64,000 bases of DNA, taken from contig OX485806.1 of the NCBI GenBank assembly GCA_950295325.1, positions 47,611,169 through 47,675,168 of the forward strand, written 5' to 3'. The position numbers and the translations under genes were made by a program. Shown piece after piece: positions 35,875 to 53,500 of this stretch. Within the stretch, counting starts at the first letter, position 1, and every line of letters starts with the position of its first letter. Origin of the DNA: Polytrichum commune. Taxonomy: Eukaryota > Streptophyta > Polytrichopsida > Polytrichales > Polytrichaceae. The notes under the pieces were generated by a model. It made no database searches. It saw only the letters and a list, made by a program, of their open reading frames with translations, and was not told where the DNA came from.

Positions 35875-36760
35875 CTTAGCTATGATTAGTAGGTCCCGGA
35901 TCACTGCCTAGTTTGGGTGAGTGTACAACTAGGTTGCTTTTAGGTGCTAGGGTGTACATCTAGATGGGCATGGCTACACTTCCTCCAATAAAATGAAATT
36001 ATATTTAAAAATCCTAGAAGCCCAAAGGTCAATGAGAGCCAACCTTGCTACCTTCCCACGCATGTGGGACCAATGCCTCCTAACCATGGTGTCACGGTAT
36101 GTGGCGTCGGCGGCCACACCTTATCCGTTGGACTTCATCCATTTAAAGTTGGATGGATGAACCTTAGTTTTGGGAAGTGAGACTCCTAAGTGAGGAGCCT
36201 CCTTCTTGGCTTGGCATTCTTGCCAAGTCAAGTCTTGTGAGTTAGTGTGTGGAGAGAGCTTGTGTGAGGTGTAGATTGCATGATTTTGCAATAAATCTTC
36301 AGTTCTTCTCCCCCTACTTACACTCTTGGATTCTCTCTTGGTGGAGTGAAAGATAGCTTGACTAATTGTATGCATTTGAAGAGAAATTAGAGCTCTTGCA
36401 AGGGTTTGACTGTCTTCCTTCTCACTTGGCAAGAATGCTTCATTTTTTATATTTTCTTCTTCATTCTTGATATATAACACACAAGGAAAGGCGTGAGGAC
36501 AATGAGTGGCGGAGTTTTGAAGTGTTGAAGCGGAGAACACCGCGAATTTGTGGAGAAACAAGGCGAAAAATGCTTCCTTGTGAATTTCACATCAAGGTGA
36601 ATTGTGGTGATGAAGTATTTGATTGACCACGGAATTCCTTGTCATTTTGCTAATTACAAGCTTGAATTCATATCATTGAGATTGTGAAGAGCATTCTTCA
36701 TTCTGATTCAAGTTCAAGTTCATTAAAAAGATTTTATAAAAGATTTAAAAAACAAAATTG
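35875..36760. repeat. Dispersed repeat, possible LTR of another family
   Basis: The 'ttggcattcttgccaagtca' segment near 36210, followed by an 'aataaa'-type signal and 'actcttggatt', is shared with 58727-58850. It might be the LTR or leader of the gypsy element starting at 38384, but I could not find its partner LTR or a primer site. Confidence 0.4.
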
Positions 36761-37145
36761 ACAAGGGAGAGGATAAGAGGAAGAGCGGCGCCGAGAGCCG
36801 GAGCTCTCTGGACTCCGGGCTACGGCGGCAAGCCGGGCCCCTCCCCGCCGCCCTCTCCTCCTCCTCCCCCTCTCCCTCCCCATTCTTCCCCTACCTCCCC
36901 TACCCCTTGCCTTCCCCCTAGCCTAGCTCCTAGCCCTTAGCCTAGCTACCCTAGATCCCCTAGATCCCCTACCTCCCCTAGATTCCCTAGATCCTACCTC
37001 CCCTAGATCCCTAGCCTAGCTACCCCCAGCTAGGTCCCTAACCCCTAGGATAGGCCCTAGCAACCTACCACAACCTAGAGCTACCTTCTACCTACCCCTA
37101 AAACCTAGCTACCTACCACGTTAAACCCAGCTACCTACCAATCAA
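36760..37145. repeat. GC-rich then CCTAG-rich low-complexity tract
   Basis: A Pro/Ser-coding CT-rich stretch (36835-36940) passes into repeated 'cctag', 'ctagatcccc' and 'ctacctcccc' units. Composition differs sharply from both flanks. No gene. Confidence 0.6.
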
Positions 37146-37564
37146 AATACATTCTTCATTATCTATTAGAGGACATTTATTTTAATTTTTTAATTTTTTA
37201 ATTTGTATTTTTAAATACAACAAAAATAAGATAAAAGTTAGTGGATTTATGAAGACAACTTTGGCATAATTTATGCCAAGCATGTTTTCATCAATCTAGC
37301 GGGGGACTTTGGGGCTCAAGGACAATTAAAAATCGTCCTAGTCTCAAGAACAAGTCAACTAGTTTTTGGGATCAAAAATTAGTTTGTGGCAAGGGTGGAA
37401 CATTGCGGGAGAGGTTCGCGGGAGCATCCGGTAACATGCGGAGGACGTGGGATCTCGGCGAATTTGCGGTTAGCTTCTCCCACAACGACTTGATAGACGT
37501 GCTTGGCATAAGCGGGGGGGATTTTCCATTTTCTTATCTTTATAAGGAAAATAAGGACGTTGTG

Positions 37565-37790
37565 ATTTATTTGGGGATAGGTGTAGGATTTATTTTGGGT
37601 TAGGTTTATTAGTTTGTTGAGGGATTGTTGTTGGGATTATTTGGGGATAGGTGTAGAATTTATTTTGGATTAGGTTTATTAGTTTGTTGAGGGATTGTTG
37701 TTGGGACTATTTGGGGATAGGTTTATTAGATTGTTGTTGGGATTTATTTGGGGGTAGGTTTATTAGATTGTTGACGGAATTACCGAGGGG
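37565..37790. repeat. ~71-bp tandem repeat, three copies
   Basis: The unit contains 'tatttggggatagg', 'ttaggtttattag' and 'ttgttgagggattgttgttg'; copies start near 37568, 37639 and 37709, with a shortened fourth. It lies in the presumed leader of the downstream gypsy element. Confidence 0.8.
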
Positions 37791-38383
37791 TAAGGCGAAT
37801 TGGCACATGGAATTACCATTCGATTTAACAAGATCATTGTTAAGGGCAAATTGTGTTTAGAAACACAAATTCCCGGGACTTCGGGGAGGAGAGGATTTTA
37901 TGTTGTAGCACTAGATGAGAGATGTGCTTATGCAATTTCTTTTCTAACCAACAGGGGCTCTTCATTTTGACCACCAACCGCAGGCGGGTGCCGGTTGGTC
38001 GTAGTCGCTTTCAATTTCTACTTAAGTGTTGTTTGGGGAAGAGGATCCAATGCTAAAAATTGCATTGTTTTCTGTGTTTTGTTTTGGTACCTTCCCCCAT
38101 GGCGGGCTGTAGTGCTGGAATGTTCTAGCACTGCCCCATTTTGTATTGTCATAGATTATGATAGGGTATTATGGGGGTGAGGTCGGAGTAATGACCGACG
38201 AGACCCTCGTATGTGCACCAAATGGGTGGTGCTTGTATTCCCTTATGGTGAGGCTGGATTGATGACCAGCAGACCATAAGTTTGGTGATGTTTGCAGGTA
38301 TAGGTTGCCTTTCAGCTTTCACCCTTTTCATTGACACTTTTAGTTAGGTTGTTAGCTCCAGTGACCAAACCCATTGCAGGTTT

Positions 38384-39937
38384 ATGGTTACAACTCGGAG
38401 CCAACATTATCGTTCTCCGTCTCCGGCATCATCACAAGAACGATCATCGGACATCTTCGACGTTGAACCAGTCGTAGCACCCGACGAGGCTTTTCAGCAT
38501 ACTTCAGCAAGGGGGACTGCCACTCGGTCTCACGTCCTTTAGGTGGGATCCTTTGACGAGATGGAGGAGTAGACGCGAGACGGTATCCGAGATCGATTTT
38601 CCGGTCAAGCGGGGACCATTTCCCTGCAAGACTGGAAAATTTCATTTCGGATGTGGATGCGAGAGAAGCGTCAACGCAATGCCAACTTCAACGATTGGTA
38701 TGCGTTCGAGCATCTGCCACAGCATTTGGAGCACGAAGCTCTCCAGACCTATGAGCAATGGACGGATGTTCATTGGATGGAGCTGCGCCAGGTGGAGCGG
38801 TACTGGAAGACTCGGGTTGAGTTGGTGTCCGCATTGAAAGAAAGCGCAGCTTCTAGTTTGATGGCCGTTCCTGAGGTTAAGTCGGAGGTACCGGAGGGAG
38901 TTTATGTGGTGGAAGTGGAAGTAGCTCCTCCTGGTGAGCCGAAAGCTAAGGGTCCTGTTCCCGCCGCGGCGAGTACTTCGAGCCCCATTCTTCCACTGTC
39001 CCGTTATGCCCAGGCTACCCAGGCGGCATTAGCTTCTTTAGGAACTCCGCCAGATTTTGATCCTCTACAGGAATTCCAACTCCATTTGGAGGAGGAATAT
39101 AGAGGCTTCTGCCGCGATCAAATGCAGCGTATCCAAGACTTTCGACGGGAGAAAGATGACACACCTCGTACCATGTACACGAGGTTTGCCAGGGAATCTG
39201 GAGGTGTTTTCGCAGAGAGCCAATTGGTGAAGGTGTTTTTGTCAAAAATCGACAAAAACCTCATTGACTTAGCATTGCCCAGGATCATTATGGATCATGG
39301 TGGCCGTGCGACACTTGCGGAAGTTTTCGCCATTGTTGAGCAGTATGATCGTGTCTTGTGTCAACACGACGCCACTGACTTGGTGTCCATGCTAGTGGAT
39401 TCTAGCAAATCCCGGAAGGTTCCGGTTGCGGCTGCGGGGTTGGCGGAGGCAGAGGTGGACAAGACCTTATATTGTTGGTCTTGTGGGCAGGTGGGCCATG
39501 CTAAGAAGGATTGTCCTTCGAAGCAAAGGCCAGCCCAGACCATCACTACTCCGAAGCGGAAATCATTTGTTCCCGCTAAGGGCTCGGCGAAGGGGGCGGG
39601 TAATCAGTTGCCCAAACAATTGAAGTGTTCTCATTGTGGGCGAAACAATAACGCGGTGGAGAATTGCTTCGCTCTCCATCCAGAGAAACGTCCTTCTTCC
39701 GAACGGGAAAAGACGTTGGAGGCGAAGATTGGTACTTTGGAGGAGAGGTTCAAAACTTTGGCGTCATCCAGCCAAATTTTGGACTCACCATCTACCTCCG
39801 GCACAAAGGCTAGTTCTTCTACTCCAGATTATTTTATGTTCGGAGCTTCAGGGCAGGTGGGTGAGTTCTGTAGCGGTGACACGTGCTCAAACCGTGTCAC
39901 GAGGCACGCCTCCGACTACAGGGGAATCTGTGGATAG
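38384..39937 (+). pseudogene. Gag with CCHC zinc knuckle (methyltransferase-bearing gypsy)
   Basis: The likely original start is ATG 38384, in frame with the long open stretch from 38573. Two TAG codons (38540, 38570) interrupt, both one C-to-T step from CAG. The mid part (~39050-39400) is the typical retrotransposon capsid region with 'DDTPRTMYTRFARES' and 'FLSKIDKNLIDLALP'. A nucleocapsid knuckle 'CWSCGQVGHAKKDC' (CX2CX4HX4C) lies at ~39472-39515. A second 'CSHCGRNNNAVENC' lacks the His. Capsid packages the element RNA in cytoplasmic particles. The downstream frame shifts by +1 near 39830-39930. Confidence 0.8.
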
Positions 39938-40943
39938 CTTACGTGCTCGAGACAATGATCCCGCGGATCAGATTGGCCAGGCACGTCTGCCATTGTCTTT
40001 TGGATTGGCTGATGCTGCCCAATCTATTAGTGCTCGTCATTTGAGCTTGGAGGCTTCGAATCCGGCGACCGATGTGGTGCACACTTTGGCATCCAAAGTG
40101 TTGCACGCACCTTTGTTCACAGCGATGGAGTGGTCATTATCCGATGTCCAACCCACTAAGGTTTTTCACCTAGCGGGTAGGATTTTGGAGGGAAAGGCAT
40201 CACCTTTTTTTTTTACTGTGGCTCAAGCCACCGCGGACCTTCCTACCACGGAGGATCCGCAGGAAGCGGCCAAACAACGAGCGAGGCTTGCGGCTGAGGC
40301 CATTGCGTCTTTTGACGCACACACCTCGGATGGCCAAGAACCCACCTCATCTTATAATTCACCAGCCTCCGCAAGTGCAACTTATCTTTTAGATGTAGCT
40401 GCTCGACCTGCTCGCGAGTGTCGAAGCATTCAACCTGGCGTTGTACGAATGGTGAATGATTCCGGCATTTTGATGGTCGGTCGGACTGGGGGCAACCCTA
40501 TTTGAGTTGCTCCCTAGTGTGTGATAATGGATTCAGGAGCACAACCTGTTATGATCGGCAAAAAACTTGCGCAGGAATTGCGATTGACGGCCGATGACTT
40601 GGCTCCTTGCCCATTTACCATCGTCACATCCATTGGCCACGTAGAGCGGGCCACTGGTTATACTCGGGAGCCATTACAGCTTAGCTTCCGAGTGAAGTCT
40701 AGAGATTCACCCGCACCTGTTCTTCTTAGGTGTGCGGTGACGGATGCGACCAACTATGACATTTTAGTTGGTCAGCAAGCACTTTACCCCCTCGGTTTTG
40801 GTTTGGACAACTGGACTGAGGAGGCTTGGATCCGACCAGGTTGGTCGGCTGGAGACGGTAGTAGGGAACTTATTCCTGTGGCATTCGCAGCGGCTGCCAT
40901 CATCGCACCATTATCCATGGTTTTGGATGCACTAGTATGGTGA
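39830..40943 (+). pseudogene. Linker and retropepsin-type aspartic protease
   Basis: Frame +1 relative to Gag. After ~220 residues of linker and a TGA at 40503 (from CGA by C-to-T), the protease reads 'MDSGAQPVMIGKKLA' (DSG catalytic triplet, ~40527) and 'YDILVGQQALYPLGFGLDNW' near 40757-40816, the usual second protease signature. It would cut the polyprotein into mature parts. The shift between Gag and this frame may be a programmed frameshift or a mutation; the sequence alone cannot tell. Confidence 0.75.
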
Positions 40944-41095
40944 ATACATTGCCTTATGAATCCGCATTATTGGAGGAGTCATTAGCATTCATGGGAAGTG
41001 TTGAAGACCCACATGAGATGGCACCTAGACCCAATGACCCTCTACCTCCGTGGCGTGATTCTACCGGCTTATTCTGAAGGTGTGAGGACATTGCC

Positions 41096-42154
41096 CTCTC
41101 TCTCGGCTTTACCACACCATTAATACCGGATAGTCCATCCACATTGGTACGCCTCATTTTGTGGCGCCCTCCAGACATTGGAATTACTTTGGTGGAGTTG
41201 TTTGGGGGCATCGGCACAAGATTAGCGGCTATATTGGAGGCTGGCCTCACGGTCAAACAATATGTCTATGTGGACAACTCTCAAGTGTCCACCCGTGTGG
41301 CTCGTTACCATCTTCACCAGTTGATGGTGTTGTATCCACAGCAGTTACACCCAACTGCCATTCGTGGATGTTTTTCACGTCTCCCTCGTGATGTCACACT
41401 TATCAGTGAGGCCGACTTACGACACTTGGGTCCGGTGGATATGGTGATTGCGGGATGGTCATGTCAGGGCCATTCACGTGCTAGAGCAGGCCAATGTCTA
41501 GAGGATCCCAGATCCAGTTTATTTTGGGACCTCATCCGCCTCATGCAGTGGTGGTTTTCCCACCAACCTTCCCCTCCAGGGTATATTTTCGAGAATGTAC
41601 CTTTGTTGGAAGATTCTCGGGACAAAGTGCTGGAAGGCGATCATTATGTTTGTCAACACCTTGGAGATCCCATTTTTGTGGATGCCGCGAGCATTGGTTC
41701 TTATGCCCACCGGCCTCGGTGGATTTGGACCAACTTCATACCAGCATCTACTTTAGTTGCAGCATTTGCTGCAGTGCCTCCACCTTTAGATCAGAAGGTG
41801 GATGATATCTTGGATCCAAACCGGAATTCTTTGTCGATTATTCGAGATGATTTACCCCCGTTGGCATTGGTCAACAAAGTTGGGGCACCACGGCGGGCCT
41901 TTCCCACATTTATGACGTTTCCACAGTCATTCGCTTTCCGCGATCAGGGACCGGGAATGGTGTGGGATGCTCACACCAAAACCCACACCGAACCATTGGT
42001 TGACGAACGGGAGCGTGCTATAGGATTCCTCACTAGCATCACCGCAACTCCCGGCCTTTCTAAGGGCCAACGACGCTTCGTGTTGGGCCATGGATCTTCA
42101 TACCATGGTGTGGACTGTTGGTTTATGCCTTTCATTGCAAAGGCATCGTGGTGA
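41096..42154 (+). CDS. C5-cytosine DNA methyltransferase domain inside the gypsy polyprotein
   Basis: Counting from Met 41144: motif I 'TLVELFGGIGTRLA' (15-28, SAM binding), motif IV 'MVIAGWSCQGHSRARAG' (Cys107 catalytic; the preceding Pro of PCQ is Ser), motif VI 'YIFENVP' (Glu150), motif VIII-like 'YAHRPRWIWTN', motif IX-like 'DERERAIGFLTS', and motif X, which reads best in the next frame from ~42088 ('AMDLHTMVWTVGLCL'). A 1-base loss near 42085 thus breaks the last motif. Domain length (~330 residues) suits a catalytic domain alone, without targeting domains. It lies between protease and RT, where gypsy elements normally have nothing. It would methylate cytosine C5, perhaps of the element's own cDNA or host targets; that role is inference. 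Nearly intact; Pro-to-Ser and the frameshift suggest this copy is inactive. Confidence 0.85.
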   Translation, partial: LSLGFTTPLIPDSPSTLVRLILWRPPDIGITLVELFGGIGTRLAAILEAGLTVKQYVYVDNSQVSTRVARYHLHQLMVLYPQQLHPTAIRGCFSRLPRDVTLISEADLRHLGPVDMVIAGWSCQGHSRARAGQCLEDPRSSLFWDLIRLMQWWFSHQPSPPGYIFENVPLLEDSRDKVLEGDHYVCQHLGDPIFVDAASIGSYAHRPRWIWTNFIPASTLVAAFAAVPPPLDQKVDDILDPNRNSLSIIRDDLPPLALVNKVGAPRRAFPTFMTFPQSFAFRDQGPGMVWDAHTKTHTEPLVDERERAIGFLTSITATPGLSKGQRRFVLGHGSSYHGVDCWFMPFIAKASW

Positions 42155-42541
42155 CCAGTGGTTGTTTCTAGGGGCAGAGGACTTTGGTCAGGGGGCACAA
42201 AGGTCCACATCCATGGAGGAAAGAATTCACACCATGGTTGGAAAAGCCGAACGAATTTCTCAATTCGAGCAGCATGTGATGGAGGAGCTTCGGGCTCAAC
42301 ATTTTAACACTGCTTTGGCTTCTTCGCCTCCGGTGGTGGCTTCATCATCACATATTGGTGGTGATGAAGAAATGCCTGACTCTAGTGCTAACACTGGGTC
42401 TGGGGGCATGGTTAATGCCCACTCCTCTCAATACCAATTAGAGTTTTTGCCAGCATCAGGTGGTTCTCCTTTGGTGGAGCGGGAGACTACAACGTTTGAT
42501 GATTGGCCACTTGAATTAGGCCCTCATCTCACTGGTGCTGA
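42155..42541 (+). pseudogene. Linker between methyltransferase and RT
   Basis: It is open in the frame of motif X and continues the polyprotein through a Ser-rich stretch with 'MEERIHTMVGKAERI', up to the insertion at 42542. No domain is recognised. Confidence 0.6.
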
Positions 42542-43514
42542 TGTCGCAACCCTTGCTAGGTCCCTTAACAATCTTGCCAATTTTTGTTTCTAGCAAAGGT
42601 TACGAGCGCTAACCCTTCGCATTCCGCCATGCTAATGGATAGCTCCTCTTACCCCGGACCAATAGTTCATAGGAGGGAACCAACCTTCCTACTTTGCTTT
42701 CGGGACTCACCCCTTAATCGGTAACCCATTTCCCCAATGTGGACTTCCATCCATGGAAGTCCAATCCTATGTTGATCATCGCGTTGCCGGAGCAACACTA
42801 CAACAACCCGCACCATACTAGGCAACTATGGCCTCACAATAGGCCAAAGCCCATGGAGGCCTTGCCGTTCGGCCTCGGGTGGGTGAGGCCACACCACCTC
42901 ACCCATATAAGCCTCTAGGACTTCTCGCGGGGCCCCTACCCCACCGTCAACCAACCTCTTGTCTCTCTACCAAGAGTTGGGGCCAAGTGGACATTTTCCT
43001 TTAGCTGCTGGGCCTAGGAACCCCCCAGCAGCTTCAGACCATCATAACTTCCTTGTATGATGTTTGATCATAACAACCAACCACTCCATCTTCATCTACG
43101 CTTCACGTAGATGCCGATGGACTCCTCACTTGCCCCATTCAAGAAAGTATTGAGGAAGTTATGCCTGTTTGAACCTTGGCAGTCCCGGGAATCACTCCCA
43201 GGCACTGCTGTACCAGGGCGCTGTCCCGGGACAGCGCCCCACTCAAATGGCCATAACTCCTAGCTCACACCTCCGATTGAGGTGTTCTTGAGCTTTCTAG
43301 AATCACCACGCCATGAGCTACGCATAACTCATGGCCTTACCCTTGTGCCTTCTAGTCTTCGTGGGTGGGAGGCGTTTCCAACGCCCGGGGCCCTCACCCA
43401 CACTAGGATCACTTGGGCCCTCTCACCAACGGCGCCACAAGTCCCGGGTGTCACTCCGGGGTCCCCCTTGTGCCCATGGTGTTTCGGGCACTCCTCATGG
43501 AGAGGTGCGCGACA
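42542..43514 (-). repeat. 3' LTR of the nested gypsy element
   Basis: This is the 3' LTR in element orientation. It differs from its partner mostly in two short clusters, near 43140-43225 and 43270-43300. Confidence 0.93.
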
Positions 43515-43528
43515 CTCACCCCCACCAA
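43515..43528 (-). other. Polypurine tract
   Basis: On the minus strand TTGGTGGGGGTGAG immediately precedes the LTR, the standard plus-strand primer of LTR elements. Confidence 0.8.
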
Positions 43529-44309
43529 ACGGAGTCGATGCCCTCATCGACTATACTTGTAGTCGGCACACCAATTCTCAAGTTGCCATCCTCTATGGTG
43601 CGGCATTGTGTTTACCTTAGGGCGCGACCCCCACAATGCATCTTCAAATTTGGCATAGTCCCAAAGGTGTCGTTCCTAGGTGGTCCGTTAGCGACCTTGG
43701 ATCTTTCATCCAAAGACCTAACCTATACTAGACCCACCTACTTTGGGACTCACTTGGGTTGCCCCTCCTTTGGGGCTTCCCCCGTTAGGCTCCAATAGCC
43801 TAACGTGACACATCTAGACGAGACCTCAACGCTTCCACTAAGTTGTCTCGGTTGCAACTCCGAGATGGCTTTCCATTGTTAAGCCACGCCTCGATCGCAC
43901 GGGGGTGATGCCAAGTCCCGCCCGACTCGGTTCCCACTTTGCTCTTTCGAAACATGGGTTCATGACTCCCATGCGCCAACTCTCGTTAGCTCGCGGGTAG
44001 CACTTTTATGAGCACGCGCCATCACCTTGTCCCCGCCCGGACAAACCCACAACTAAGAAGTTTCTTGGTTTTATCCAAGGCCCCTCCAAGCCATGGCCCC
44101 CAATTACTCGGCTTACCCAACCTAGTTTGGCATATCTATTCTCCCTCTTCCATTAACCAAGCACAAGTACAAGACTAGGACCTCATCTCATACTTTTCTC
44201 TTTGCACCACTAAAGTTTGGACTTTATTCCCTCAAGCCAAAAAACAAGTTCATGTTGTGGAGTAATTAACCTCGAAGCTAAGTATGCTACTAGCGTCTCT
44301 CCCCCACTA

Positions 44310-44620
44310 AAGGAGATTGATGTCCTCGTCAATGCCTACGCTTCATTTTATTGGAATCCTTAGCCTTAGTTTTTTCAAAGTGCTTCACCAATTCATTGGT
44401 GTTTACCATGTCTCTTGCCGCCACCCAAGCGGTTTCTTTCTCATGGTATCCTCACCATTTCACCAAGTACACCTTTGTACATTTTCTTTCATTTTCACTT
44501 GGGCTTCCTACACTTGAGGATGCCCTCCTACCTCATGTTCTAAATGACCTCCACAAGGTCGGGACGTGGCCTAATCACTTGCCTGTGATCGGGCCACAAG
44601 GTGTTGTCCTAAAATGACTT
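44310..44620 (-). pseudogene. Chromodomain-like C-terminal tail of the nested element
   Basis: In pieces the minus strand reads 'VGGHPQV', 'CRKPKWK'-like and 'WVAARDMVNTNELVKHF' segments. These match the clearer tail at 57830-57995 ('ILKCKSPKWKENKYLVNLRGF'). In chromoviruses such tails steer integration to chromatin. Frame is broken. Confidence 0.55.
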
Positions 44621-44853
44621 TCGTAATGAGACATGAAATGTCAGATACACTTTGATCTCCGGCGGTAATTCCAACTTATACATGTCCTTGAACACTTGTT
44701 CCACAATGCAAAACGAAGCTCCAATTTTGGACATGAACTTTTGGAGTAAGGCCTTTGGGCAAGGTGAAGTTGTCCACATTCAACAACACCTTATTGGCCC
44801 ACCTCATACTCCACTTCGCGTCTTCCGGCATTGATTTGCACTCCGTAGCACCT

Positions 44854-45750
44854 TCAGGCTTTCTCCACCAACAACTTGGTCATCTCCAAGATTTGTTTAC
44901 CATCTTTGGCCAAGTCCTCACCATCTTGGTTGAACTCTAGTGTTGAATGTGCCCCCTCGAGGGCTAGGTTAATAGGTTGGAGCGTATCCACTCCATAAGC
45001 CACCACGAAAGACCACCCCTTGGTAGCCAAGTGCGTGGCTACATTGCAATTACACTCCGCTCGACCCACATAGTCCGCCCAATCTCCTTGGTCCGCCCCC
45101 ACCAAGTTCCTCAAGTATTGCTTCAAGACTCCATTCACATGCTCCGCTTTCCCATTCATTTGGGAATGCAAGGCCGTGCTAAACCTTAGTTTCATTCCGA
45201 CCTCCTTAGAGAAATGCATTGAAAATGCACTTGTGAACTTTGGATCTTGATCCCACACAATCACTCTTGGCAACCCGTGGTGCCTCAACCATCCTTTGAG
45301 AAAAGGCTATGCGGTCTCCAACGCGGTGGCGGTTCCCACAATCGGCACCATGTGTGCCAACTTGGCAAACCGCTATACCATCAACAAGATGGCATCATAC
45401 CCATGTGACTCCGGCAAACTTGTGATCAAGTCCATGCACATACTATGCCATGGCGCCAACGGGATAGGCAACAGTTGCAAAAACCCGCCTTGTTTTTGGT
45501 AAGAGGCTTGATTCACTTGGCACTTTAATTCAAGCCTTCACAAAGTGGGCTATATCTTCCTTTTATGCACCGCCAATGGTACCTCCAAGGCACCATTCTA
45601 TGGCGGTTTTTCCTTTCTCCTCTATGGCTGGCAATAGGACTATCACATTCTTCCTTCAAAACCGATAGCCTCAACTTGCCTTGAGGCACATACACCCGAC
45701 TTTGCTTACACTTGAACAATCCGTCCACCAACCTAACCTCTTTGAGCACC
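44854..45750 (-). pseudogene. Integrase of the nested gypsy element
   Basis: The ORF 45288-44854 reads 'RVIVWDQDPKFTSAF' (second catalytic Asp), then 'LHSQMNGKAEHVNGVLKQYLR' with the catalytic Glu in 'AEHVN', at DDE spacing. Upstream, 45749-45525 carries the zinc-binding part ('LRLSVLKEECDSPIASHRGE', one His replaced by Cys). Between them the frame is lost, so the first Asp is not visible. Integrase inserts the cDNA into chromosomes; this copy is inactive. Confidence 0.8.
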
Positions 45751-46189
45751 TTGCTCTTGCGAAGCTCACCTAAAAGTTTTTGTACCTCGGGGTAGTTAAT
45801 TTACCCCTCCCGTATCTTGCATCACAAGTTTCCTTTGCCGGCACACATTAGCCACAAGGTTTGGATGGTTCTCATTGCTTGGAACTCTTCCCGTCTACTT
45901 AGCGCATCCGGCACCACATTTCCACGGTCCGGTTTGTGGACCAAATCTACCTTCATAAACGCCAAACTATCATGCCACCGCAATGACTTGGCGCTCACTT
46001 GCGCTTGTATATGTTAAAATACTTTTAGGACACATTGTCCATGTAGACCTTTGTTTTATGCGACCCCAAATAATGTCGCCACATCTTCAAGCAATGCACT
46101 ACGACAAAGAAGTTCTTTGTCATAAGTTGGTTGTCTTCTTTGACAACTATCGAGCGTCAAGCCCCCATATGCAAAGGCCATCCATCTTA

Positions 46190-47020
46190 CATTAACAATC
46201 CATCATTGGCAAAGTTACTCGCCCCCGTATGCACCTCAAAAGGTTTGTCAAACTCCATGAATTTGAGCACGGGCGGCGAAGAGAACTTGCTCTTAAGCTC
46301 CCCAAAGACTTGGTGACAAGGCTAGTCCCACTTTTGGGATAGCCATTTCTTTCACAAGTTGGACAACCATCGAGCTTCATGCTCCCATATGCAATGGCCA
46401 TCTTTTTTTTTTACATCAACATCCGCCAATGGTAAAGTCACTCGCCCCCGTATGCACCTCAAAAGGTATGTCAAACTCCGCGAACTTGAGCACGGGCGGC
46501 GAAGAGAACTTTGTCTTAAGCTCTTCAAGGACTTGGTGGCACGGTTCATCCCACTCTTGGGATAGCCATGTCTTGCACAAGTCGGACAAGGTTTAATAAC
46601 CATTGAGCTTATTGCTTTCATATACAATGGTTCTCCATCTTGGATCAACATCAGCCAATGGCAAAGTGACTTGCCCCCGTATGCACCTCAAAAGGTTTGG
46701 CAAACTCCGCAAGCTTGAGCACAGGCGGCAAAGACAATTTGCTCTTAAGCTCCCCAATGGCTTGGTGACACGGCTCATCCCACTCTTGGGATAGCCATTT
46801 CATGCACAAGCCGGACAAGGTTCGACAACCATGGAGCTTAATGCTCTCATAAGCAATGGTCATCCATCTTGGATCAACATCCGCCAATGATAAAGTCCTT
46901 CGTCTCCATGTGCACCTCAAAATGCTTATGAAAACCCAGAAACTTAACCACATCTTATGAAGGGAACTTGCTCTTGAGCTTTCCAAAGGCTTAGTGACAA
47001 GGCTCATCCCACTCTTGGGA
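46190..47020 (-). pseudogene. Four tandem copies of the RT/RNase H junction module
   Basis: The segment 'GELKSKLSLPPVLKLAEFAKPFEVHTGASHFAIG'-type (read in 19-residue pieces: 'PCHQAIGELKSKLS', 'PVLKLAEFAKPFEVHTG') is normally present once. Here it recurs four times with a period of ~223-232 bp. The landmark 'tcccact(c)ttgggatag' is near 46325, 46550, 46778 and 47008. Copies are diverged and frame-broken. The downstream remainder of RNase H is weak. Confidence 0.8.
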
Positions 47021-47059
47021 TAGCTATTTCCTCAATAAGTTGAGTAAGGTCTTAGCAAT

Positions 47060-47360
47060 CTTAAAACAAATCTAGAATGAAGTGGTGGTAGTAGTTGGCT
47101 AGGCCAACCAATGACCTAAGTCTTTTTGAATCAAGGGCCAATTCTCCTCTTGGATTGCCTAGAAATTCTTCATGTTTGTCCACCAACTTCCTTTGTCACC
47201 ACATGCCTCAAGAACTCAATTTCTTCTTGAGCAAAGTTGCAATTCACTCCTTGGCGGTAACATTTTGAGCAACACATTGGTGAATACATCCTTGTATCTC
47301 ACCAACATCCCACAAGTATGGTTTGGGGGAGGCCCATATTTCCTAGCCTCCCCATGAGTT
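47060..47360 (-). pseudogene. RT remnant with the core deleted
   Basis: The minus strand gives an RT N-terminal segment 'RYKDVFTNVLLKMLPPRSE' near 47290 and then almost at once the C-terminal 'RLRSLVGLANYYHHFI' near 47100. The ~150 residues between, including the YxDD active site, are absent. The element could therefore not copy itself. Confidence 0.65.
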
Positions 47361-47708
47361 CCTTGGAGTTGCTCCAATTGAACCACGACCATTATGTTTT
47401 TTATTTTTTATTTGGTCCATTAATACCATAGAAGTCCTTGTCAATTTGAACCTCAATTCTTTGCCATTATGACACATCATAATGCACGGCAAGCACACCG
47501 GCTTGCACCTCACATCTATCATGTGAGTTTCAAAGAAGGCGGCCTTCACAATGACATGCATTTCATCTATTTCACATGGTGTGAAATTTTGACAAAAATC
47601 CAATGTCCCACATTGAAAGGTTACATGCATCGCGGCCTCCTTTGTCTCATGCAGTTCGCCATTTCCAAACCGCACATTGGTGGGTTTGCCCGCTCTATCA
47701 ATCGGCAA
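47343..47708 (-). pseudogene. Protease-region remnant
   Basis: 'FTPCEIDEMHVIVKAAFFE' followed by 'VDVRCKPVCLP'-like text matches the retropepsin-to-RT region of chromoviral gypsy elements, where a short D-containing strand is followed by a conserved 'GDTFLE'-like turn. No active-site DSG is visible. Confidence 0.55.
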
Positions 47709-48387
47709 GCCCCAACTCCCTTGTGAGTTTTGGGCTCAAGAAGGAATGGCTTGCCTCTTTGTCAACACACGAGACTTGGCCTCGGCTTAAGGCTACTAGC
47801 CTTGGCCACAAAGCCATCTTCCAACATTCCGTCCTCGGCAACTTGGCTTAGTTTGGTCCGCAAACCCAACTTTAAACATTCCGTCCACGGGACAAATTGG
47901 TTTGGTGCCACAAAACCAATTTCTAATAGTTTGTCCACGGAACAAACATGATTTGCCTTGGTAGTACAAAGCCACCTTTCACACTTTATCCGCGGCACGA
48001 ACATGAATTGCCTTGGTAGGATCAACCCACCTCCCAACATTCCGTCCGCGGCACGAGTATGTTTTGCCTTGGTATAATGGGCCAAACTACTTTCACCCAT
48101 TTCTTTAAGACCAATATCGGCTAAAACCCACTTTGTGGTGATGCGCCGCCCAACTTCTTTTCGGGACCATCGGCTTCAATGTTCTTCAAATCTTAAAGAT
48201 TTCCGATACGTCCTCAAGAAGCTTTGGGGAGTTGAACATGGTATTCACCACCCGCTTTTGAAACCCCATTTAAAACGATGTGTTTCTTAGCCAACTAATC
48301 AATCTTAGTTGTGCCATTCATTAAGGTGGTTAAATCGCACACATAGGCCTAAAAGCCTTGAGTGCCACATTTGCACCCATTCCAACT

Positions 48388-48663
48388 TCACCACATTCTA
48401 AGCAATTTGGATTGGAATTTCAATCCAATATTACCACCGTCCAAGCTTTCGGATGCATTCGGTATTCTAGCCCCCGAATACTTTTTGAGGTTTGCGGGAG
48501 CCCTTTCAAAGCACTCCTCCATTTTCCTCACCGAATCCACCCTCATGCCCACCATTGTCATTAGAATCAATGGTATGGTCACAATCCACTTGCACATGAT
48601 CCTTGTTCCAATTTGAGCCTCACAACCTTTTAGAAACCCCGGGCTCACCATCATAATCCGCAT
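48388..48663 (-). pseudogene. Gag N-terminal remnant
   Basis: It shares 'YSGARIPNASESLDGGNIGLK' style text with the Gag remnant near 56875-56945 ('NSGARLPNALKSMEGG'), showing both belong to one family. It lies just after the primer site, as expected for Gag. Confidence 0.7.
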
Positions 48664-48704
48664 TTTTTATAGCCATGTCTACCTCAAAGTGCTAGCTCAA
48701 ATAT

Positions 48705-48727
48705 TGGAACCCTGCTCTGATATCAAG
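48705..48727 (-). other. tRNA primer-binding site (initiator Met type)
   Basis: On the minus strand TGATATCAGAGCAGGGTTC lies two to three bases after the LTR end. TGGTATCAGAGC is the standard complement of plant initiator Met-tRNA; one base differs. It fixes the element's orientation. Confidence 0.88.
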
Positions 48728-49700
48728 TGTCGCAACCCTTGCTAGGTCCCTTAACAATCTTGCCAATTTTCGTTTCTAGCAAAGGTTACGAGCGCTAACC
48801 CTTCGCATTCCGCCATGCTCATGGATAGCTCCTCTTACCCCGGACCAATAGTTCATAGGAGGGAACCAACCCTCCTACTTTGCTTTCGGGACTCACCCCT
48901 TAATCGGTAACCCATTTCCCCAATGTGGATTTCCATCCATGGAAGTCCAATCCTATGTTGATCATCGCGTTGCCAGAGCAACACTACAACAACCCGCACC
49001 ATACTAGGCAACTATGGCCTCACAATAGGCCAAAGCCCATGGAGGCCTTGCCGTTCGGCCTCGGGTGGGTGAGGCCACACCACCTCACCCATATAAGCCT
49101 CTAGGACTTCTCGCGGGGCCCCTACCCCACCGTCAACCAACCTCTTGTCTCTCTACCAAGAGTTGGGGCCAAGTGGACATTTTCCTTTAGCTGCTGGGCC
49201 TAGGAACCCCCCAGCAGCTTCAGACCATCATAACTTCCTTGTATGATGTTTGATCATAACAACCAACCACTCCATCTTCATCTACGCTTCACGTAGATGC
49301 CGATGGACTCCTCACTTGCCCCATTCGGGCAAGTATTCAGGAAGTTATGCCTGTTTGAACCTTGGCAGTCCCGGGAATCACTCCCAGGCACTGCTGTACA
49401 AAGGCCCTGTCCCGGGACAGCGCCCCACTCAAATGGCCATAACTCCTAGCTCACACCTCCGCTTGAGGCGATCTTAAGCATTCTAGAATCACCACGCCAT
49501 GAGCTACGCATAACTCATGGCCTTACCCTTGTGCCTCCTAGTCTTCGTGGGTGGGAGGCGTTTCCAACGCCCGGGGCCCTCACCCACACTAGGATCACTT
49601 GGGCCCTCTCACCAACGGCGCCACAAGTCCCGGGTGTCACTCCGGGGTCCCCCTTGTGCCCATGGTGTTTTGGGCACTCCTCATGGAGAGGTGCGCGACA
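48728..49700 (-). repeat. 5' LTR of the nested gypsy element
   Basis: 973 bp. In the clusters where it differs from its partner LTR it resembles the solo LTR at 52206-53193 (e.g. 'ctccgcttgagg' instead of 'ctccgattgagg'). Confidence 0.93.
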
Positions 49701-51215
49701 GTTGAGGCACGGAAGGTACGAACATTTATTCGCTCGTACCGTAGATGTTTTGCTTTTAGCCTTCATGATCTTGTAGGTTATAAAGGAAACCCATCCACAT
49801 TCAATTGGAGGACGACCATCCCATTTTTCGGAGACCTTACAGGCTCAGTGTTTCCGAGCGGATTGGCGTTCAGGCTCGTTGCTGAGAGCTCTTCGCAACA
49901 AGGCTAATCGAACTTTTCAACGGGGAGTATGCTTGTGCTACGGTTATACCATCAAAGAAGGATATCTTTGGCAATTGGACGGAGAAACGGATGTGTGGGG
50001 ATTACCGTCCAGTTAATCGGAAGGCCAAGTCGGATCGGTACCCCATGCCAATCTCGGAGGAGTTGTTCGATGCCATCGGATTTTCGAGGGTCTTTAGTAC
50101 CTTGGACTTGAGATCCGGATATCACCAACTCCCATTACTTACGGGAAATTGGGTGAAGACCGTATTTTGGGGAGTTGATTATGATGGGAATGATCAACTA
50201 CACCATTGGAAGTTTCTTCCATTTGGTCTCAAGAATGCGCCTGCTGAGTTTCAGAGAGTGATGGACCAAGTTCTCTCAGGCTTGCCTTTTGCTCGGTGTT
50301 ACATTGATGACGTGATCATTTTCAGCAAAACACCACAGGAGCATGTAAAGCATCTTCAAGCCGTTTTTGAGCGATTACGGCGGTGGGGATTGCGCTTGCA
50401 CCATGGCAAGTGTAAGTTTTTTCATAACCGACTAGCATATCTAGGTCATATGATTATTCCAGGAGGTCTTGGGGTGCAACAAGCTAAAGTGGACGCCTTG
50501 CAAAAGATCCCGGCACCAGTCGATGTGCCGAGTCTTCGTGCTTTCTTGGGCTTGGCGAATTACTATCGTCGATTCGTCAAGAACTTTAGCTTAATCGCCA
50601 AGCCTCTTACCATTCTCACAAGCAAGGACCAACCTTGGACTTGGGGTCGTGAGCAGCAACAGGCATTTGAGACATTGAAATAGAAACTGGGTGCGGCTCC
50701 AGTGCTTTGACGTCCGGATGTCTCCAAATCCTTCCAGTTGCATACAGATTGGAGTTTATTGGGTTTGGAAGCAGTTCTCACTCAGAAGGATGATTTTGGC
50801 CGAGAGTATGTTGTTGCTTACGCTTCGCAAAGCAATAACATGGCGGAGGCTAATTATTCATCCTACGAGGGAAAAGCATTGGCGGCGGTATGGGCTATTG
50901 CCCATTTTCGGCCGTATCTTTATGGTCAGCACTTTATTTTAGTGACTGACCACCAGCCGTTACGGTGGCTCATGGAGTCGGATAAACTTACTGGCAAGCT
51001 TGCCAGGTGGGCTTTGTTGCTCTAGGAGTATGACTTCGAGGTGGTACACCGTGCTAGGATTACCAACCTCGATGCAGATGGACTCTCACGCAATCCAAGT
51101 CCTTCGGATGAGGACTTGACCGGGGCCATGTGGCATGGAGATTGTGATTCTTGTAGCTACGTTGGCAAATGGTATTCTGTTGGATTGCATGGTGATGATT
51201 TTGGTGATAGTCATT
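49701..51215 (+). pseudogene. Reverse transcriptase and RNase H of the methyltransferase-bearing gypsy
   Basis: The pre-RT linker (49705-49800, 'RSYRRCFAFSLHDLVGYKG') is followed by a frameshift and then RT: 'MCGDYRPVNRKAKSDRYPMP' (49991), 'FSTLDLRSGYHQLPL', 'FLPFGLKNAPAEFQRVMD', active site 'CYIDDVIIFSK' (~50300), 'AFLGLANYYRRFVKNFS'. RNase H follows: 'FQLHTDWSLLGLEAVLTQK' (50735) and 'VTDHQPLRWLM' (50943). Stops at 50681 (TAG), 50708 (TGA) and 51023 (TAG) all fit C-to-T decay of CAG/CGA. RT copies the RNA into cDNA. Integrase, which should follow, is missing. Confidence 0.88.
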
Positions 51216-51699: not shown

Positions 51700-53500
51700 G
51701 GATTTTGAAATAGGTATATGTGCCTCAATCACAATACAAATGGAAGGGATCTCCCATTCTATGAATAAGATAGCCTCAATGCCAAAACAAATGCAAAAGT
51801 GTTATATTTTGTGGTCACTTGAAAGGTGGTGCAATTTGCCCACAATGCTACATTAATTTTGGAATCCCAATCACAGTTGTGATTTTTTATGGTATTTGTA
51901 ATATACACACAATGGCTTGGTTGAGTTGTTCAACTAAGCCATATGTCTCAAGGTCATAGTGTGTGGTCTTTCAATGGTCTATGCCATATGTCAAGGTTAA
52001 TTTCTCGATGACATTGTTAAGGAAATGGCTTCCCCTATTACTGATCAAATCCATTGGAATTCTATATCGAGCAATGATGTTTCCAAAGATGAATAAGGCC
52101 GTCGTTTTCCACGACATTTAGTACTTTTGTTTCCACCTACTTGGTAAGATAATCCACCATGAAAATGATATAAGCTATATCTTGAGAAGACCTAGGATGG
52201 GCTGGTGTCGCAACCCTTGCAAGCCCCCCTTGACAATCTTGCCAATTTTCAATTCTAGCAAAGGTTACGAGCGCTAACCATTCGCATTTTGCCATGCTAA
52301 TGGTTAGCTCCTCCTACCCCGAACCATATAGCTCATAGGAGGGAACCAACCCTCCTACTTTGCTTTCGGGACTCACCCCTTAATCGGTAAACCATTTCCC
52401 CAATGTGGACTTCCATCCATGGAAGTCCAATCCTATGTTGATCATCGCGTTGCCGAAGCAACACTACAACAACCCGGACCATACTAGGCAACTATGGCCT
52501 CACAATGGGCCAAAGCCCATGGAGGCCTTGCCGTTCGGCCTCGGGTGGGTGAGGCCACACCACCTCACCCATATAAGCCTCTAGGACTTTACGTGGGGCC
52601 CCTACCCCACCGTCAAGCAACCTCTTGTCTCTCTACCAAGAGTTGGGGCCAAGTGGACATTCTCCTTAAGCTGCTGGGCCTAGAACCCCCCGAGCAGCTT
52701 CAGACCATCATAACTTCCTTGTATGATGTTTGATGCTAACAAATAACCACTCCATCGTCATCTACGCTTCACGTAGATGCCGATGGACCCATCACTTGCC
52801 CCATTCGGGCAAGTCTTGAGGAAGTTATGCCTGTTTGAACCTTGGCAGTCCCGGGAATCACTCCCAGGCACTGCTGTACCAGGGCGCTGTACCAGGGCGC
52901 TGTCCCGGGACAGCGCCCCACTCAAATGGCCATAACTCCTAGCTCACACCTCCGCTTGAGGTGATCTTGAGCATTCTAGAATCTCCACGCCATGAGCTAC
53001 GCATAGCTCATGGCCTTACCCTCATGCCTCCTAGTCTCCGTGGGTGGGAGGTGTTCCCAACGCCCGGGGCCCTCACCCACACTAGAATCACTTGGGCCCT
53101 CTCACCAACGGCGCCACAAGTCCCGGGTGTCACTCCGGGGTCCCCCTTGTGCCCATGGTGTTTCGGGCACTCCTCATGGAGAGGTGCGCGACAGCTGGTC
53201 CACATAGTCATTTCCCCATTTTTCAAATGGAGAAAGAGGTTGTCATGGTATAAAAAATCAAGCTAGGTGAAGGTCATTTGTCGCATGGTGTTGACAAACA
53301 TCGCATCTAGTGGCATGGGTGTGAGCATCTGTGACAATGGTGGGCTAAAAATACCTTATTCAAAAGGTCATTTGTGACGTGAGACAACCAACAAAATGGC
53401 CTCCACAAGTGTTATTGTGACATGCTCTAAGCATATCATGAATTTCTATCTCATTCACACATTGGTAAAACACCCCATCTTTGGCAAAAGCAATTGGTGA
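51700..53500 (-). pseudogene. Decayed gypsy integrase, interrupted by a solo LTR
   Basis: On the minus strand, from ~53330 down, 'DAHTHATRCDVCQHHA' (HHCC zinc part) and 'PFEKWGNDYVD' are followed, past the LTR at 52206-53193, by 'IFMVDYLTK' and 'ETKVLNVVENDGLI', then 'ETYGLVEQLNQAI' near 51930. This order is that of a gypsy integrase core (the sequence resembles the Tat/Athila side). Stops are frequent. Removing the LTR joins the halves. Confidence 0.65.
52206..53193 (+). mobile_element. Solo LTR with perfect GCTGG duplication
   Basis: 988 bp of the TGTCGC...GCGACA family, flanked by GCTGG at 52201-52205 and 53194-53198. The extra 15 bp over the 973-bp form come from a tandem duplication of 'accagggcgctgt' near 52878-52907. 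It lies inside the decayed integrase above. Confidence 0.93.

Follow-up and report, generated by a model that had tools for sequence, protein, structure and literature searches.

Our analysis indicates that the genome of the moss Polytrichum commune holds a recently active Ty3/gypsy retrotransposon family that carries a DNMT3-type C5-cytosine DNA methyltransferase. A decayed copy lies on the plus strand at positions 36090-51184 of a stretch of 64,000 nucleotides (contig OX485806.1 of assembly GCA_950295325.1, forward strand, positions 47,611,169 to 47,675,168), called the window here, and retains Gag, protease, C5 methyltransferase and reverse transcriptase (RT)/RNase H sequences. The initial annotation, made from the letters of the window alone, had proposed a Ty3/gypsy element with its own C5-cytosine methyltransferase, and this was borne out by many intact copies that share one domain order. 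Such a family raises the puzzle of why a parasite should bring along the type of enzyme with which its host silences parasites of this sort.

The element family and its methyltransferase

The genome (G000; 408 Mb in 64 contigs) was scanned with the methyltransferase, which gave 352 candidates and at least 123 scored PF00145 matches. Of these matches, 18 fall within open frames that run on for 1356-1386 amino acids without interruption, so the genome search for intact copies that the initial annotation had put forward as a check was positive. We examined 20 loci, namely 17 of these 18 intact-frame matches, two with shorter frames (L026 and L028), and L027. In 10 of the 17 intact-frame loci, the second open reading frame (ORF2) was uninterrupted (1045-1048 amino acids) and ORF1 was in frame to the shared stop. 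The two copies of the repeat A within an element, A1 and A2, differed at 4 of 4533 aligned bases in 11 copies, and this near identity shows that the insertions are young. There are two subfamilies, which are saturated at synonymous sites between them. L027 was rejected as an element, as it is a host DRM-type methyltransferase gene (E 1e-46 to DRM2) with Sphagnum (74%) and Ceratodon (63%) as the closest named relatives among the best 120 of 240 matches, which places the host among the mosses; at least one of the 123 matches is therefore not an element.

DNMT3A was the best match of the element methyltransferase in a profile search (E 1e-26). Motifs I to X stand in unrearranged order, and the fold predicted from 46 aligned sequences is DNMT3-like (a single-sequence prediction gave a predicted local distance difference test score, pLDDT, of 30.3). 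By sequence and predicted fold, the domain is of the DNMT3 type. The ADD and PWWP domains of a whole DNMT3 protein were not listed by Pfam in the element proteins P0001 and P0005. The ratio of nonsynonymous to synonymous substitution (dN/dS) was 0.116 for one pair, in which dS was saturated, and 0.20 as the mean of three pairs, which indicates that the domain is under purifying selection.

Coding plan and the conserved UAG

ORF1 (1356-1386 amino acids) encodes Gag, in which a CCHC knuckle and, by eye, a further motif, CSHCG, were recognized, followed by the protease and the methyltransferase. ORF2 (1045-1048 amino acids where whole) encodes RT, RNase H, an integrase with rve and H2C2 domains, and a PHD finger, which forms the C-terminal end of the integrase (PF00628, E 2e-10) and is nearest by sequence to those of CHD4, PHF12, KAT6A and PHF21A. 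No chromodomain was found by Pfam in the examined element proteins, and the PHD finger stands at the integrase end instead.

The two ORFs lie in the same frame with a single TAG between them. At this border, 17 of the 18 element loci from L009 to L026 read TAG-CAA-TCA, TAG-CAA-CCA or TAG-CAA-TTA. The exception is L024, in which a frameshift causes ORF1 to end earlier at a TAA, and TAGCA is still present beyond it. CAA-YYA after the stop was retained in both subfamilies although the surrounding bases differ. UAG-CARYYA has been described as the type I readthrough motif of tobamoviruses (PMC5382211), and the stop and next six bases of the moss element fit it at those 17 loci. From this context, it is predicted that the UAG would be read through by ribosomes and that RT-integrase would be a minor extension product. 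Because the methyltransferase is encoded before the conserved UAG, each Gag chain produced should be accompanied by it.

Repeats, primer site and proposed integration

The element has the layout A1 - leader - ORF1 - UAG - ORF2 - B1-GC-A2-B2, starting with TGTCACG and ending with ACGACA. All nine copies with both ends in the examined sequence started with A and finished with B, and their four flanking bases matched exactly, as a 4-bp target duplication. Two full long terminal repeats (LTRs) at the insertion ends, as in an ordinary LTR retrotransposon, were not seen. Neither was the tyrosine recombinase of DIRS elements; rve and H2C2 integrase domains and 4-bp duplications were found instead. 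The sequence past B1 could be read in 17 copies (L025 and L028 were excluded from this count): 14 continued as B1-GC-A2, and three stopped after B1, each flanked by its own exact duplication.

The polypurine stretch GGGGGCA abuts B1 in 17 of the 18 copies with a B. Directly 3' of A1 stands ACTTGACAACAAT or ACTTGGCAAGAAT, a putative primer site, which matches the reverse complement of 13 nt within A exactly in all 15 copies covering it as well as in the window copy. Two positions of this site that differ between the subfamilies covary with the complementary stretch in A, and the predicted fold of the L011 leader pairs the two (z -1.72). We infer that the polypurine tract and the self-complementary primer site are signs of self-primed LTR reverse transcription, with B.GC.A as the LTR (about 442 bases in subfamily 2). 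In the chromosome, however, the element is bounded by the halves of a divided B.GC.A junction and not by the LTR ends. This junction is the palindrome GACAGCTGTC in 13 of 14 copies, the remaining one, L026, having one substitution; a cut after CA on both strands would give two-base 5' overhangs, like integrase processing. The A2|B2 joint was exact in 11 of 12 copies; in L016, 21 bases are missing from it at a CTTG microhomology.

Exact B.GC.A|B blocks were found genome-wide 13 times in subfamily 2 and 59 times in subfamily 1. The exact pattern of B.GC.A followed by the primer site gave no match in subfamily 2 and a single one in subfamily 1, which was rejected on reading: this locus (L060, region of C6:14862566) is a 3' end, preceded by integrase and PHD, that continues with ACTTGAC and then other sequence. 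Among exact matches to these genome-wide patterns, there was thus no ordinary LTR insertion and no circle cut of the mirror form. The ACTTGAC that follows A2 in L060, in the place of B2, could be a captured complementary DNA (cDNA) end with a partial copied primer site, or it could be due to chance. In L012, A1 and A2 are both 561 bases long instead of the usual ~434 and have an internal duplication in common, so this repeat change appears to have arisen before or during the last reverse transcription.

From these footprints, we propose the following mode of integration. The element transcript would prime its own reverse transcription from the 13 nt within A, and, the polypurine tract lying just 5' of B1 and the primer site just 3' of A1, the resulting cDNA would have the LTR B.GC.A. 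The integrase would ignore the cDNA ends and instead cut within the LTR, at the palindrome GACAGCTGTC, opening each strand at CA|GC. The cut ends would join the target, and the cDNA ends A and B would be joined to each other, giving the product A-ORF-B-GC-A-B, or A-ORF-B if only one unit is used. The one-sided form may reflect a bias, as the 5' LTR would possibly be double-stranded first and be cut first. The methyltransferase would methylate the cDNA of its own element, inside the particle or in the nucleus and no later than at insertion, and the PHD finger would help select chromatin.

The account as a whole, comprising the family, layout, readthrough, self-priming, inner-palindrome cut and end joining but not the functional step, is in our judgment evenly balanced between right and wrong. 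The integration step itself, the cutting of an internal palindromic site, is judged to be about evenly balanced too, if leaning slightly toward doubt. The combined statement that a DDE integrase cuts a palindromic site in mid-LTR, that end joining of the cDNA produces the split repeats and that a methyltransferase made at the level of Gag marks that DNA seems plausible but slightly doubtful. Methylation of the element's own cDNA, together with a choice of chromatin by the PHD finger, is the least certain step and is offered tentatively, as somewhat more doubtful.

Several observations weigh against this account. The methyltransferase is far less constrained than RT, with a between-subfamily dN of 0.270 compared to 0.057 (RT dN/dS was 0.030). 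De Mendoza et al. (2018, PMC5890265) observed no methylation when the domain of the related Klebsormidium element KnitGypsy-Dnmt3 was placed in yeast, a result that they considered inconclusive. The A1/primer-site stretch was absent from the examined sequence at 4 of 19 element loci (L022, L023, L025 and L026), and the single B of L025 sits behind other sequence. The three of 17 copies that end at B1 can equally be explained by recombination between B1 and B2. Structure downstream of the stop was no better than in shuffled sequences in four copies (z -0.84 to -1.23). Finally, the random cut of a 2-LTR circle, which was our first model, predicts a mirror form, and none was found in either subfamily; because the mirror form is absent, a bias has to be added.

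The split repeats might also have arisen by a DIRS-like templated route, in which a B1-A2 splint joins the ends of A-ORF-B and a DDE integrase has replaced the tyrosine recombinase. The repeat order does equal that of DIRS elements, as was stated for KnitGypsy-Dnmt3 (PMC5890265), and the fixed direction of such a route would explain the sole orientation, with A2-B2 at the 3' side. The polypurine tract at B1 and the self-complementary primer site at A1, however, mark LTR reverse transcription, the 4-bp duplications show DDE-type insertion, and the A2|B2 joint of L016 with its microhomology loss resembles end joining, albeit in one case, so we regard this route as unlikely. The idea that the UAG is an ordinary stop, with ORF2 expressed otherwise by reinitiation or from a separate RNA, agrees with the lack of a readthrough-stimulating structure in the four copies. 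It is very improbable, given the one frame, the single TAG and the retention of CAA-YYA across both subfamilies despite their differing surroundings.

As to function, the methyltransferase may limit or regulate the element, silencing its copies and sparing the host, or may act on host DNA or RNA and not on cDNA. The initial annotation had suggested that methylation may hide the element's copies or regulate the element. A limiting or regulating role was raised as an idea by the authors of PMC5890265, and the methylation-type decay of the window copy in CG, CHG and CHH contexts, given below, would agree with it. Methylation of silent elements by the host itself would account for this spectrum equally well, and copies that are young and numerous do not look like those of an element held down; we consider this explanation improbable as well. 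The initial annotation had also allowed for a separate host gene that received pieces of Gag and RT accidentally. Nothing but the damage to the window copy speaks for such a gene, and the idea is refuted by the many copies of the same order, their 4-bp duplications and the related elements in other species, which leave it a negligible probability.

Preferring integration at the internal palindrome, we note that the multi-copy moss family allows predictions of a readthrough ratio, of methylated extrachromosomal cDNA and of what the integration intermediate looks like. Its footprints also bear on the natural use of a palindromic circle-type junction by an integrase. If true, internal-palindrome integration would be a natural case documented by footprints and would explain the DIRS-like repeats of Gypsy-Dnmt3 elements.

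Relatives and known systems

A search with the methyltransferase domain inside ORF1 gave 78 proteins, including those of Marchantia, Sphagnum, Klebsormidium, Closterium and Monoraphidium. The domain alone gave 158 proteins in a search that scored only the 7994 candidates sharing most words, and the best 120 of these add Calypogeia and Sphagnum troendelagicum; one locus among them we take, from its prefix, to be of Spirogloea. Two domain orders were found among the relatives, protease-methyltransferase-RT-RNase H-integrase (PR-MT-RT-RH-IN, with PHD present or not) and RT-RH-MT-IN-PHD. A single branch separated the two orders in two trees: in that of RT-RH it had 16 rows on either side (support 99), and in the second tree of the methyltransferase it had 50 rows on one side and 25 on the other (100/96). 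In the latter tree, partial MT-IN-PHD proteins were counted with RT-RH-MT-IN-PHD. P0070, P0077, P0081 and P0043 (long branches), P0003 (a near-duplicate), P0063 and P0085 (fewer than 200 residues) and DNMT3A were left out of the second tree; in the first methyltransferase tree, P0043, with the order MT-RT-RH, stood beside RT-RH-MT-IN-PHD with support 81. The methyltransferase and the polymerase thus divide in parallel, which means either a single move of the domain or two captures from related donors. The presence of PHD fingers in both orders suggests that they are old in the family. A scan of IMG/VR gave 21 loci, the best segments being 26-44% identical over part of the domain, and no close relative.

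Two further proteins are of note. P0084, of 1770 amino acids, has a related methyltransferase at its start and an RNase H that belongs to different Pfam families (PF13456, PF00075), and possibly represents a further kind of carrier element. The methyltransferase of P0087 is 69% identical to that of the moss element and is filed under a Candidatus Obscuribacterales metagenome-assembled genome, a placement likely due to eukaryotic contamination of that genome.

The kind of element is already known, since de Mendoza et al. published Gypsy-Dnmt3 elements with DIRS-like repeats from Klebsormidium nitens (KnitGypsy-Dnmt3, PMC5890265). The moss element agrees with it in RT-RH-IN combined with a Dnmt3-type domain, in A-coding-B-A-B repeats, in being intron-free and in the purifying selection on the domain, for which the paper gave Ka/Ks below 0.2, compared to 0.116 and 0.20 in the moss. 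It differs in that the KnitGypsy methyltransferase is in the Pol ORF, whereas that of the moss element is in ORF1 with Gag, before the conserved UAG. The Klebsormidium homologue P0075 has the order PR-MT-RT-RH-IN, and Pfam found no PHD finger in this partial protein; the main text of PMC5890265 makes no mention of PHD or readthrough. The same paper described retrotransposons with captured cytosine methyltransferases in dinoflagellates, SymbioDIRS-Dnmt3 and SymbioLINE-Dnmt; the statement of the initial annotation on such captures in charophytes and dinoflagellates is therefore right. The dinoflagellate elements are of the tyrosine recombinase or long interspersed nuclear element (LINE) type, in contrast to the rve integrase and 4-bp duplications of the moss element.

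The nearest known chemistry to the proposed cut is that of foamy virus integrase, which cleaves the palindrome of 2-LTR joints with the loss of two bases at integration (PMC1180852). A palindromic junction and two lost bases are common to both systems, but the foamy virus junction is made at the LTR ends in a circle, whereas the moss junction is built into the LTR of each copy. Chromodomain elements offer the closest parallel for priming.

In the Tf1/Sushi gypsy elements, the primer site is complementary to the element's own RNA, and the moss element resembles them in this respect in the 15 copies and the window copy. The moss element Tcn1, also a chromodomain element, has been predicted to be self-primed (PMC6317226). 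Both differ from the present family, which has a PHD finger at the integrase end. In the openly licensed literature, our searches turned up no moss Gypsy-Dnmt3 elements, none described with a PHD finger or with readthrough of a stop, and no account in which the repeats were interpreted as an internal attachment site. As far as our searches reach, the methyltransferase before UAG-CAA-YYA, the PHD-ended integrase, the decoded split repeats and the two domain orders among relatives from bryophytes to green algae are new.

The copy in the window

The window copy is a dead, old relative of the recently active family. Its repeat A1 occupies 36090..36423, starts with TGTCACGG and is 88% identical to the A of intact copies; the putative self-complementary primer site ACTTGGCAAGAAT adjoins it at 36424..36436 and has its exact reverse complement within the same A1. 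The initial annotation had placed the start at the ATG of ORF1, 2.3 kb too far to the right, having missed this 5' repeat and the primer site. A decayed non-coding leader follows at 36437..38347, as identified by blastn against the leader pieces of L023 and L024. The ORF1 remnant (38348..42428) is spread over several frames and matched intact ORF1 in four tblastn segments of 80-85% identity.

The domains had been listed in their actual order and on the plus strand, and the zinc knuckle, protease, PF00145, RVT_1 and RNase H were all matched by Pfam. The Gag CCHC zinc knuckle lies at 39473..39520 (zf-CCHC, E 2.2e-4, above the Pfam cut-off) and the aspartic protease, with MDSGAQ, at 40521..40940 (Asp_protease_2, E 1.2e-3, below the cut-off, with intact copies having it in the same place). 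For the DNMT3-type methyltransferase domain at 41177..42150, the hidden Markov model check that had been suggested gave a PF00145 match above the cut-off (E 2.6e-8). The frames of ORF1 are broken, with a stop codon upstream of the methyltransferase, and motif X is disrupted by a frameshift near 42090. WSCQ stands in place of WPCQ; relatives have P or E at this position, so the change alone need not inactivate the enzyme. By comparison with intact copies, TAC is found at 42432..42434, where the TAG is expected, and the following CAATTA is retained.

ORF2 starts at 42435..42541 (tblastn) and resumes at 49703..51184, with RT at 49991-50680 (RVT_1, E 1e-26) and RNase H at 50738-51022 (E 2.9e-31), all on the plus strand; matches stop before the integrase core and PHD. 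C-to-T changes were found at 32 of 289 CG, 29 of 235 CHG and 89 of 1170 CHH sites, compared to 75 of 2030 for A/T transitions. This excess is the pattern expected of methylated, decaying DNA and indicates that the copy did not escape methylation-type decay.

A separate LTR element of 7.2 kb (42542-49700, minus strand) is nested in the copy, as judged from its direct repeats, flanks and an integrase fragment. The initial annotation had read 38384..51215 as one element; the domains it named do belong to the methyltransferase element, while the nested element and the decay were overlooked. The near-identical direct repeats begin at 42542 and 48728, with a single spacing of 6186. The element landed 107 bases into ORF2, with GCTGA and GTTGA on its two sides, and its minus-strand integrase fragment gave a weak rve match (E 0.21). 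A third copy of its repeat, possibly a solo LTR, lies about 3.5 kb to the right at 52208-53185. Within the nested element, four tandem copies of about 229 bases were observed at 46192-47101.

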